Shown here: positions 12,548 to 57,062 of the stretch, piece by piece
Position numbering within the stretch: the stretch's first letter is position 1
Layout of the letters: every line of letters starts with the position of its first letter
NCBI GenBank assembly: GCA_016840405.1
Contig: JAEOSK010000008.1
Location: 1 to 64,000, forward strand
Source of the DNA: Candidatus Hermodarchaeum yapensis
Lineage (GTDB): Archaea > Asgardarchaeota > Hermodarchaeia > Hermodarchaeales > Hermodarchaeaceae
Direction: 5' to 3'
Length of the DNA: 64,000 nucleotides
Program-made: the position numbers and the translations under genes
The notes under the pieces: model-generated
What the model saw: only the letters and a program-made list of their open reading frames with translations
Told to the model about the DNA's origin: nothing
The model's database searches: none

Positions 12548-12644
12548 GCCTCGGTAGCTCAGTGGTAGAGCGACAGCCTCGTAAACAGTCATTGACTTTC
12601 GAGATAGCTGCTGGTCGCGGGTTCAATCCCCGCCCGAGGCTCCA
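12548..12644 (+). tRNA. tRNA-Thr(CGU) with a canonical intron, CCA encoded
   Basis: Acceptor GCCTCGG/CCGAGGC and T-arm GCGGG/CCCGC are perfect, and CCA is encoded at 12642-12644. Exons are 12548-12583 and 12606-12641. The 22-nt intron (12584-12605) sits at 37/38; CTCG of the anticodon loop pairs with CGAG in the intron, flanked by 3-nt bulges TAA and ATA, a canonical bulge-helix-bulge. The anticodon is CGT. The anticodon stem is ACAGC/GCTGC, with one A-C mismatch at 27-43. Confidence 0.92.
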
Positions 12645-50467: not shown

Positions 50468-51055
50468 CTAGCCGATGCAAGACCAAGCTATTTGACGAAA
50501 TCCTTCTGTAACGCCTTGGCCTTCTTTTGCGCTAGTCTCAAAATATCCCCAGCCCAGCTGTTGTGCATATCTCATTGCATCCTCTGATGAAACTTGACGT
50601 TGATCCACTAAATCGACCTTATTTGCTATCAACACTGATGGAATCGCACCAGTTACTTGAGCAACTTCGTCATACCATCCTGGAATATTATCAAAGGTAT
50701 GACGTCTTGTCACATCAAAAACTAAGATAATCCCTGCGGCTCCTCGATAAAAGACAGGACGTACCGAACTAAAATGCGGTTGACCTGCTAAGTCCCAAAG
50801 TTGTAATCGGACTAATGTATCACCAAAATTCAGTTCTTTCACCGCAAACGAAGTACCAACAGTCATGATGTATGATTCGCGGAAATGCCCCTCAGTGTAA
50901 CGGATAATGAGACTAGTTTTGCCGACGGCACCATCGCCAACGACGCAGACTTTGAGAACATACTGGCGTTGCGGTGTACTCATGTAGCCTTTCTCCTCGA
51001 GGGTTCGGTTTGTCTGACTTACGTTTGTGGCAATATATTGGTTTCGTTCATCCAT
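50468..51055 (-). CDS. Rab/Ras-type small GTPase
   Basis: 195 residues. All five G motifs are intact: GDGAVGKTS (40-48), a switch-I Thr near 65, WDLAGQ (87-92), NKVD (145-148) and TSAK (174-177). This is the eukaryotic Ras-superfamily layout, abundant in Asgard archaea. The end (SCIG) has a cysteine four residues from the C-terminus but no standard prenylation box. The first 24 residues before Met25 are weakly supported; a TATA-like tract upstream of 51055 favours the longer form. Confidence 0.9.
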   Translation of the reverse strand: MDERNQYIATNVSQTNRTLEEKGYMSTPQRQYVLKVCVVGDGAVGKTSLIIRYTEGHFRESYIMTVGTSFAVKELNFGDTLVRLQLWDLAGQPHFSSVRPVFYRGAAGIILVFDVTRRHTFDNIPGWYDEVAQVTGAIPSVLIANKVDLVDQRQVSSEDAMRYAQQLGWGYFETSAKEGQGVTEGFRQIAWSCIG

Positions 51056-54123: not shown

Positions 54124-54135
54124 ACGCCCCAACAC

Positions 54136-54142
54136 ATTTAAG
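54136..54142 (+). promoter_or_regulatory. TATA-like element upstream of tRNA-Ile
   Basis: ATTTAAG centred about 31 bases upstream of the tRNA, with a preceding A/C-rich BRE-like tract. It lies inside the 47-bp gap after ileS. Confidence 0.45.
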
Positions 54143-54170: not shown

Positions 54171-54316
54171 GGGCACGTGGCTTAGCCTGATGGAGCGCCG
54201 AACTTCTGCGTCCTTGGCGCAGAGTGTGTATGCCTTATATGGTGTCGCTCCGAACATTCGATTGCGAAGCCTAGGTAAGCCGGAGGTCGCGGGTTTGAAT
54301 CCCGCCGTGCCCACCA
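54171..54316 (+). tRNA. tRNA-Ile(UAU) with two introns and an 8-nt middle exon
   Basis: Exons 54171-54200, 54232-54239 and 54278-54313 give a 74-nt tRNA with perfect GGGCACG/CGTGCCC, CCGGC/GCCGG and GCGGG/CCCGC stems; A73 and an encoded CCA follow. Intron 1 (54201-54231) is at 29/30: GCGC pairs with GTGT between bulges CGA and ATG, with an 8-bp inner helix. Intron 2 (54240-54277) is at 37/38: CTTA pairs with TAGG between bulges TAT and TAA, inner helix GGT-G-TCGC/GCGA-A-GCC. The 8-nt exon GCCTTATA carries anticodon TAT. Most archaea instead decode AUA with a C34-agmatidine tRNA. Discriminator A73 and the neighbour ileS fit Ile. Confidence 0.82.
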
Positions 54317-54327
54317 CTCTTCTACGG

Positions 54328-55854
54328 CTATTTCGATTGCCTTTTGTCATCAAATTTCTTTGCGGCAGTTTCGAAATCTATCCCAAATCCCGTTTCTTTT
54401 GTTAATCGAGTTCGTACCTGCATAAATACTGGAAACCGCGTAGCCTGACCGACAACAAGAGCTTCGCCTACAGTTAGACTTGAGATTGAAGTAAGAGTTG
54501 CCTTAGTAATTTTTTCTGACGTAGCTCGGATATGATCTAAATCATAAGGATTTGTGATTCGAAGGAAGATATTCGTACCGCATTGAGACAGAACAGTTGT
54601 TGACAGACGAACAGGGCGCTGCGAAATAATACAAAGTGACAAATTGTACTTACGCCCTTCACGTGCTACTGTTTCAAGAACTCCTTTAGAAAACGCAAGC
54701 GTGCGGCGTGCCTGAGGGCAGAATTGGTGGGCCTCTTCAAGAAACACAATGGTGGGAGGAATCGTTCCGTCTCTTCGCAGATCAAATAGATAGCGAAGAA
54801 CTGCATCAACAATAATCTGTTTCTTTTGTAAACTCACCGTTTCACTCATATCAAGAATGACCGCTTGTCCGGGTTTCATCAGTTTTGACCAATCAGGTGT
54901 AGGTGTTTTTCCAAAAAGTCGAAGACTTTGAAGATTATCTAACCAACCTAGAAGGGCATCGCGGGTCCTCACATTAATTGAAGGGTCTTGTTCGAGAGCA
55001 GTGATTAAATCCCCGATATCGTATGGCTGTCCTTTTCGCGTGCTTCGAAGGGTGCGGATTACCCGAGTAAGCTCTCGAACCTGAATGGTGCCCATATCTG
55101 GGGCATACGTTGCAAATGCTTTTGCACTCATTCGAGGTGTAGCAATTTCAACTAGTGGACTTTGGATGACAGTTATTTGGTCTTCGAAACTTTTTCCCTT
55201 GGCTCCACGCGATTCTGCTAGCCCCGTATATTCACCATGCACATCAATCACAAGTAACGCCGGACGACCTTGACTGGATTTTCGTGCAAGAAGCTCTTCC
55301 AACATTACAGATGCAGCGTAACTTTTTCCTGCCCCACTCATCGCAAGAAGCGCCACATGCTTTTGATACATTTTCGTCAAATTAAAGGTTGCAGGAATAT
55401 TATGGAATAATAACTGTCCGAGATGAACCCCATCTTTAGTAAAACCCAGAAATTCACCTAGAACCTTTGTATCTGGGGCCTTTACCTGAGTGCCAGGTGA
55501 AGGAGGGTAGGTAATCCTTCGAACATGGCCGTTTTCGAATATACCAAGGGGCTTAGCCTCAGCTAGCACATATTCCCATCGATCTATAGGAAAAATGGCG
55601 TTGAAAGCTTTCCCTGAGCGTGTAAACTCATGCACCGCATCAATTTGCGAAAAATACCGATTTGTCTTGTAAACTTGTTCAACATGAGCAAACACTGTCC
55701 CTTCCTCGGTCTCCATAGAGACATATTGTCCAACATGAATTGGGACTTGTTTATCCGATGGGGTATCATTGCGTTTTCCAATGACAAAGGAAACATTTTC
55801 CGTTGATGGACCATTTTCTGTGCAAACGACGGTTCCAATAGTTTCTGCTTTCAT
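54328..55854 (-). CDS. herA: HerA-type hexameric helicase/translocase
   Basis: 508 residues. N-terminal HAS-barrel region, then a RecA-like ATPase with Walker A AMSGAGKSY (first Gly of the consensus is Ala) and Walker B IVFLEEAHQF. Forms the DNA-end resection machine with NurA, Mre11 and Rad50. It lies 29 bp downstream of nurA on the minus strand, an operon common in archaea. Confidence 0.92.
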   Translation of the reverse strand: MKAETIGTVVCTENGPSTENVSFVIGKRNDTPSDKQVPIHVGQYVSMETEEGTVFAHVEQVYKTNRYFSQIDAVHEFTRSGKAFNAIFPIDRWEYVLAEAKPLGIFENGHVRRITYPPSPGTQVKAPDTKVLGEFLGFTKDGVHLGQLLFHNIPATFNLTKMYQKHVALLAMSGAGKSYAASVMLEELLARKSSQGRPALLVIDVHGEYTGLAESRGAKGKSFEDQITVIQSPLVEIATPRMSAKAFATYAPDMGTIQVRELTRVIRTLRSTRKGQPYDIGDLITALEQDPSINVRTRDALLGWLDNLQSLRLFGKTPTPDWSKLMKPGQAVILDMSETVSLQKKQIIVDAVLRYLFDLRRDGTIPPTIVFLEEAHQFCPQARRTLAFSKGVLETVAREGRKYNLSLCIISQRPVRLSTTVLSQCGTNIFLRITNPYDLDHIRATSEKITKATLTSISSLTVGEALVVGQATRFPVFMQVRTRLTKETGFGIDFETAAKKFDDKRQSK

Positions 55855-55883
55855 TCAAGTTTCATCCTACAATCAAATCATTT

Positions 55884-57062
55884 CTACTGAAATGGCATTC
55901 TTTCACGGCGTAATTTCAATACACTCTCCGGATAACCAATCCGGCTCGTCAGTTGGTTCAAGAGGAATTCTAGATCACGCTCGATTAACCGAGCTTGTGA
56001 ATCTGCATCAATTAATACAGAAGGAAGGGCAAATTCCTCGTTATCAGAAGACATAGGAAGCAACATTGCCCCAATTTTTTCAATTATACTCTTTGGGTCA
56101 TAAGATCCTGTAAATACCTCAACACGGAGCGGATAATCATATTCTGCCGTTCGTAAGTAAAAACAAACAAGCCCATTTTCTTGTTGGTTGGGCCCTTCAC
56201 CTTCAAGTGTATTTTCGATATTAGAATTATCTAGTCGCAGTATGGGTGATCGCTCACCTACATCGAGAATTCGGAAAAAGAAGTCTGAATCATAACTAAG
56301 CTGCAACACAGAGCGATAATCCAAATGAAGCATTGGTTCCAACTCAGGATGTCGAGTAATCAGATGTGGAAGTATCTCACCGAGAATGTGAATAAACCGT
56401 TGACTTCTGCTGTCTTTCACAACACCTGCTAGGAGCGTCCCTGTTTCCTCGCTCTTCGTGTACAGTTTTTCGAATAATTCGATAATTTCACCGTACTTTC
56501 TTGAGAATATGGATTGTTGTGATGGTCGATCATTAAGATGGGGCCTTAGCGAGCCATCCAATAACAACAACTCAGCAGGGTGATGATCTTGTACTCGGAT
56601 AGCCAATTCCAATTCGCCTTTCAATCGTTCAAGTGATGCATTAAGCTCTGCTTCTCGTCGAGATATTGGAGTTAGTTCTGCTTTCACAGTTGGCAGCGTT
56701 GTTTTTTCAGGAAAATAAATTGCAGAAACCCGATTAGAAGGTGTATATTCAAAAATGGTAGCATTAGCCCGAGTTATAACTAATTCCACACCGCGCAATG
56801 TATTTTTCAACAGTCCACCATCAACACCACACACGCGGAGACCGCTTAATTCCGTAGGAGTAACTTGACGGGCTAAATGATTATCAACAATGTATCGCTG
56901 AGCAAGCGGTAAGTCCGTTAAGAGATCAATCTTGTGGCGTTCACTTCGAAGAATAGAAGCAAAGGAATTTCTTTTCTCTTCTAACATTTGGATTTGTTGG
57001 ACAATTTTTTCTAATGCCTCATCCAACGCCCATAACTCGCGAATAGTCTTCATTCCTATCAT
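55884..57062 (-). CDS. nurA: NurA 5'-3' nuclease
   Basis: 392 residues. The conserved N-terminal Asp region (CGVDGGLLKN) is followed by the strand EIAQ-type core and LLLDGSLRPHL, which supplies the second acidic patch. Partner of HerA in resection of DNA breaks. Start is ATG 57062 or 57053. The coupling with herA supports the assignment. Confidence 0.9.
   Translation of the reverse strand: MIGMKTIRELWALDEALEKIVQQIQMLEEKRNSFASILRSERHKIDLLTDLPLAQRYIVDNHLARQVTPTELSGLRVCGVDGGLLKNTLRGVELVITRANATIFEYTPSNRVSAIYFPEKTTLPTVKAELTPISRREAELNASLERLKGELELAIRVQDHHPAELLLLDGSLRPHLNDRPSQQSIFSRKYGEIIELFEKLYTKSEETGTLLAGVVKDSRSQRFIHILGEILPHLITRHPELEPMLHLDYRSVLQLSYDSDFFFRILDVGERSPILRLDNSNIENTLEGEGPNQQENGLVCFYLRTAEYDYPLRVEVFTGSYDPKSIIEKIGAMLLPMSSDNEEFALPSVLIDADSQARLIERDLEFLLNQLTSRIGYPESVLKLRRERMPFQ

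Follow-up and report, generated by a model that had tools for sequence, protein, structure and literature searches.

The distinction between the codons AUA and AUG is solved by agmatidine in archaea, by lysidine in bacteria, and by inosine or a pseudouridine-containing UAU anticodon in eukaryotes. The usual archaeal reader of AUA is a CAU tRNA carrying agmatidine that is made by TiaS; without TiaS, tRNA-Ile2(CAU) would be charged with methionine and read as methionine. An archaeal UAU anticodon is listed only for Korarchaeum cryptofilum and Nanoarchaeum equitans (PMC6000648, 167 genomes; PMC8450103, 217 genomes). The yeast enzyme Pus1 depends on the intron of tRNA-Ile(UAU) to pseudouridylate U34 and U36 (PMC4090602). 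Positions 29/30 and 59/60 are listed sites of archaeal tRNA introns (PMC4090602), close introns in one archaeal tRNA are removed sequentially (PMC8450103), and multiple introns and a high intron load are described for the tRNAs of Atabeyarchaeia and Freyarchaeia (PMC11291895). In the open-access literature searched, there was no report of an Asgard UAU tRNA and no paper joining Asgard with TiaS or Lokiarchaeota terms with agmatidine; subscription papers were not covered.

The window analysed here, a stretch of 64,000 nucleotides from Candidatus Hermodarchaeum yapensis (window genome G000: contig C76 of 77, 2.7 Mb, 86% complete), contains a tRNA-Ile(UAU) gene with three exons at 54171-54316 on the forward strand, 47 bp downstream of ileS (Table 1). 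We propose with high confidence (probability about 0.92) that this locus is a functional gene standing in for the TiaS/agmatidine route, with expression, splicing and isoleucine charging inferred in the absence of RNA data.

Table 1 Features of the tRNA-Ile(UAU) locus, in window coordinates.
Feature	Coordinates	Strand	Support
ileS, isoleucyl-tRNA synthetase, 996 aa	51133..54123	+	Pfam PF00133 and PF08264
ACATTTAAG, a possible TATA-like element 29-37 nt before the tRNA (inferred, no promoter data)	54134..54142	+	Conserved in four g1 genomes
Exon 1, positions 1-29	54171..54200	+	RF00005 match; no difference among four congeneric genomes
Intron 1, 31 nt, position 29/30	54201..54231	+	BHB helix GCGC/GUGU and inner hairpin; pairing kept in relatives despite sequence divergence; missing in G007
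Exon 2, 8 nt, GCCTTATA, G30 to A37	54232..54239	+	Sole BHB-consistent reading; fused to exon 1 in G007
Anticodon UAU (34-36), cognate to AUA	54236..54238	+	Lies in exon 2; no variation among six Hermodarchaeota genomes
Intron 2 (38 nt) at the canonical site 37/38	54240..54277	+	BHB helix CUUA/UAGG; mean identity 89% (five relatives)
Exon 3, positions 38-73	54278..54313	+	RF00005 match; T-loop UUUGAAU
CCA, genome-encoded	54314..54316	+	Direct sequence reading

The Rfam tRNA model RF00005 matches 54171-54313 with 40 bits against a gathering score of 29, and the match contains a long insert within the anticodon arm. ARAGORN, run on the window, missed the gene at 54171-54316, and a first look at the whole genome with RF00005 missed it likewise. 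Because ARAGORN and rapid initial scans overlook genes with multiple introns, such genomes can end up annotated seemingly without a tRNA for AUA. Direct reading of the exons gives the acceptor stem GGGCACG/CGTGCCC, the D-stem GCTT/GAGC, the anticodon stem CCGGC/GCCGG, the T-stem GCGGG/CCCGC, A73 and an encoded CCA, while the D- and T-loops are atypical, with A19 (54190) opposite U56 (54296). Both introns form a 4-bp helix with flanking 3-nt bulges and thus meet the bulge-helix-bulge (BHB) criterion. A miscalled tRNA-Ile2 is ruled out since the anticodon is UAU and not CAU. In the unspliced precursor (window 54179-54283), pairing across the 3' splice site is predicted between GGCUUAGCCU of exon 1 and AGGUAAGCC; this pairing is present in the folds of the same genus and is not clear in the sister genus. 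The window contains just one further tRNA, tRNA-Thr(CGU) at 12548-12641, which has an intron at 37/38. Elsewhere in the genome, the tRNA L021 (1501-1606, minus strand) was called Cys(GCA) by ARAGORN; by eye, Asn(GUU) interrupted at 30/31 by an intron is the better reading.

All two-intron readings between the D-arm and the variable loop were enumerated exhaustively, with 2000 dinucleotide shuffles as control and a full 5-bp anticodon stem together with Y32, U33 and R37 as the stem criterion. The stem alone is poor evidence, because without the BHB rule it allowed 21 readings at the locus and at least one reading in 1709 of the 2000 shuffles (85%). When a BHB was demanded at both junctions, exactly one reading was left, in which a 31-nt intron sits at 29/30, a 38-nt intron at 37/38, and the anticodon is UAU; any double-BHB reading occurred in 4/2000 shuffles, and one of comparable stem score in 1/2000. 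Readings with one intron reached at most four of the five anticodon-stem pairs, and a single-intron reading is thereby ruled out. Splicing in another way to another anticodon, either with one canonical intron or with the 38-nt intron shifted to give UGU or GGU, draws its only support from the 21 readings allowed without the BHB rule. Against it, no alternative has both BHBs, a related genome (G007) joins CTTATA straight to exon 1, and CTTATA is likewise read in families f18 and f6, where a single anticodon-loop intron is present. We therefore regard this alternative as practically excluded.

Orthologues of the UAU tRNA gene were found in three genomes of the same genus (G001, G003, G004) and two of the sister genus (G005, G007), which makes six Hermodarchaeota genomes together with the window genome. 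The exons are identical across the four same-genus genomes, whereas intron 1 has drifted to a mean identity of 63%; the corresponding value for intron 2 is 89% over five genomes. In the inner helix of intron 1, pairing is preserved by two-sided changes (A-U to G-C, U-A to C-G), and acceptor pair 5-68 is A-U in the window gene and C-G in the sister genus. All six orthologues carry the tertiary pair A19-U56 instead of G19-C56, a two-sided replacement as expected for a tRNA under selection. G007 does not have the intron at 29/30, and its uninterrupted GGAGCGCCGGCCTTATA equals the predicted splice product, so that the junction is supported by a natural exon join. Further introns occur at 59/60 in G005 and G007 (UUUG paired to either CAAG or CAAA) and in the D-loop of G007. 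Thus, with extra introns in both and none at 29/30 in G007, the arrangement of introns keeps changing, but the mature tRNA is retained. The pair G007 (L040) and G005 (L039) offers a clean case of gain or loss of the 29/30 intron.

The first-pass annotation, made from sequence alone, had claimed a tRNA-Ile(UAU) in three exons with an 8-nt middle exon, two BHB motifs at 29/30 and 37/38, and a perfect cloverleaf. The exon structure held (Rfam, enumeration, G007), as did the motifs, which give the unique double-BHB reading; the cloverleaf held for the secondary structure, with the reservation of the atypical D- and T-loops. Its statement that archaeal UAU tRNAs are known only in a few lineages fits the surveys (PMC6000648, PMC8450103). 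The interpretation as a whole, including the absence of TiaS, is supported, and the pattern extends well beyond the window genome.

TiaS was sought solely through its FLD domain, PF08489. The window genome gave no match at E<=1, an absence that is weak by itself because the genome is 86% complete. However, the domain was found in none of the eight Hermodarchaeota genomes (family f1), with control archaea positive. Over the phylum it is present in 64 of the 163 Asgard genomes searched, and the loss is family-wise: in addition to f1, no f2 or f18 genome tested has it. PF08489 was also not found in the searched genomes of f4, f6, f8, f10, f13 and f25-f28. In f29 it occurs in one of five genomes; this lone genome, G199 (L215), might be contaminated or a genuine exception. 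Most of the remaining families are positive. The CAU tRNA that would belong to TiaS is more difficult to assess. Among intronless genes, a pattern search for CAU tRNAs returned the initiator tRNA-Met only and, with one mismatch allowed, tRNA-Ile(GAU) too. The intron-tolerant CAU pattern also misses elongator tRNA-Met in most genomes, and the absence of tRNA-Ile2(CAU) therefore cannot be demonstrated directly. AUA accounts for 18.6% of isoleucine codons (13.8 per 1000) in 25 ORFs of the window, with 13 occurrences within ileS, so that a reader of AUA is required.

These data bear on the possibility that the locus merely resembles a tRNA gene, through decay or by chance, and that AUA is decoded by a CAU tRNA whose modification comes from a divergent TiaS that escaped detection or from an acquired TilS. 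In favor of it, the genome is incomplete, TilS lay outside the search, elongator-type CAU tRNAs are hard to detect, and a cloverleaf is possible in most shuffles if BHBs are ignored. It does not account for exons that stay invariant next to a drifting intron 1, for the compensatory changes, for the double BHB, for the loss of an intron at the exact junction in G007, or for the lack of TiaS in all eight genomes of the family and in several related families bar one of the five f29 genomes. We consider this explanation highly improbable.

UAU tRNAs were surveyed in 228 genomes of the phylum with a pattern of D-stem (RAGC), CTTATA and T-loop, and acceptor and D-arm of the hits were checked by script and by eye. 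The RAGC pattern returned 23 true UAU genes in families f2 and f18, which to judge by family size and genome size are probably Lokiarchaeia, and a second pattern added G163, G085, G073 and G012. A GRGC version gave chance hits only. Hits in G123, G009, G071, G063 and G165 and a second hit in G044 were discarded because they had no acceptor or D-arm, and the covariance model R1 was functional, yet it did not rank UAU tRNAs above other tRNAs. In total, 33 genomes including the six Hermodarchaeota encode a UAU tRNA, in at least four families (Hermodarchaeota, f2, f18 and f6). With the patterns used, none was found in the TiaS-less families f4, f8, f10, f13 and f25-f29 (with the one TiaS exception in f29).

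TiaS (PF08489) was found in none of the 33 UAU genomes: a true UAU tRNA is present in 33 of 99 TiaS-negative and 0 of 64 TiaS-positive genomes (Fisher p=8e-9, uncorrected for shared ancestry). Because of the shared ancestry and of patterns that are far from complete, this p-value is best read as the agreement of at least four families. Failure to find UAU in TiaS-positive genomes is weak evidence, since the patterns miss many intron layouts. The UAU tRNA could also be a minor extra beside an intact agmatidine system, in line with the fact that tRNA-Ile2(CAU) is not directly excluded. Against this stand the failure to find both TiaS and a UAU tRNA in any of the 33 UAU genomes tested and the misreading as methionine to be expected of tRNA-Ile2(CAU) without TiaS, and we judge it to be a remote possibility.

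Each Asgard UAU gene found has an intron immediately 3' of its anticodon, at 37/38. For f2, the sequences as read match an anticodon-loop BHB at 38/39 (UUAU paired with either GUAA or GUAG); these genes have a D-loop intron too (21/22, helix UGGU/GCCA), and some have a third. The f6 gene of G012 contains three introns, including those at 37/38 (CUUA/UGAG) and in the variable loop (GCCG/CGGC). The anticodon-loop intron of f2 (L190-L214, L225, L245) carries a covarying stem (for instance CGGACA/TGTCCG, CAATCA/TGATTG or TGAACA/TGTTCA) as well as a conserved CA.ACA, which together exceed what a BHB needs.

The window IleRS is 87% identical to that of the Hermodarchaeota record JAEOTO010000032.1 and 86% identical to that of a second Hermodarchaeota MAG record, and in both records tRNA-Ile(UAU) follows right after ileS. 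In G012, whose IleRS is only 48% identical to the window IleRS, the tRNA lies 52 bp after ileS. The linkage is hence old or recurrent, being present in Hermodarchaeota and in this distant f6 genome; in f2 and f18, ileS was not found within the examined flanks of the UAU tRNA. The 47-bp spacing behind ileS given in the first-pass annotation held, and the linkage is conserved among relatives, but the co-regulation suggested there remains unproven, because the TATA-like ACATTTAAG in the gap would permit separate transcription. On its other side, ileS adjoins a gene for a Ras-family small GTPase (50468-51055, minus strand), an Asgard protein of the eukaryotic-signature type, and a HerA helicase and NurA nuclease pair (54328-57062, minus strand) is oriented towards the tRNA.

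In our model, the transcript of the UAU gene would lose its two BHB introns, presumably via the archaeal tRNA splicing endonuclease and the RtcB ligase; since the genome has many more tRNAs with introns, cleavage by an EndA-type endonuclease and joining are implied. The three exons (30, 8 and 36 nt) would be joined to a 74-nt tRNA, whose cDNA would contain CCGGCCUUAUAAGCCGG. IleRS would charge this tRNA, and AUA would be decoded directly by U34-A pairing, both of which are inferred. Modification of U34, or an adaptation of IleRS or the ribosome, may keep AUG from being read. In this way tRNA-Ile(UAU) would replace the agmatidine pathway of CAU tRNA and TiaS, and TiaS would have been lost. Due to the occurrence of UAU together with loss of TiaS in at least four Asgard families, the archaeal rule fails in a portion of the archaeal group that is closest to eukaryotes. 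The locus offers a direct, sequence-ready test system for how an archaeal U34 avoids misreading of methionine codons. A bolder hypothesis, formed by analogy to eukaryotes and in our view unlikely, is that the UAU system is ancient in Asgard archaea and that the constant anticodon-adjacent intron directs modification of U34 and U36 before splicing. If this were true, eukaryotic AUA decoding would have Asgard roots.

The closest known systems include the archaeal tRNA-Ile3(UAU) described for Korarchaeum cryptofilum and Nanoarchaeum equitans, in which the same UAU anticodon is found in place of tRNA-Ile2(CAU)/TiaS (PMC6000648, PMC8450103) and of which the Korarchaeum gene is likewise intron-bearing (PMC6000648). 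The Asgard genes differ in that they span several families, often with two or three introns, and in the 8-nt internal exon, the A19-U56 pair in Hermodarchaeota and the link to ileS. The agmatidine-modified tRNA-Ile2(CAU) also serves AUA, but TiaS is absent here as far as tested. Eukaryotic cytosolic tRNA-Ile(UAU) shares the anticodon and an intron next to it, but has only this one intron, which no BHB of the strict archaeal type defines; we have no evidence for common descent of the Asgard and eukaryotic tRNAs. The multi-intron tRNAs of Thermoproteales, Atabeyarchaeia and Freyarchaeia (PMC4090602, PMC11291895) likewise carry BHB introns at non-canonical sites, several per gene. Those reports are not about AUA decoding, whereas here the intron layout conceals a tRNA that explains the loss of TiaS. 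Each component is thus known; the use of all of them together as the standing means of AUA decoding in Asgard families is apparently unreported in the open-access literature searched.
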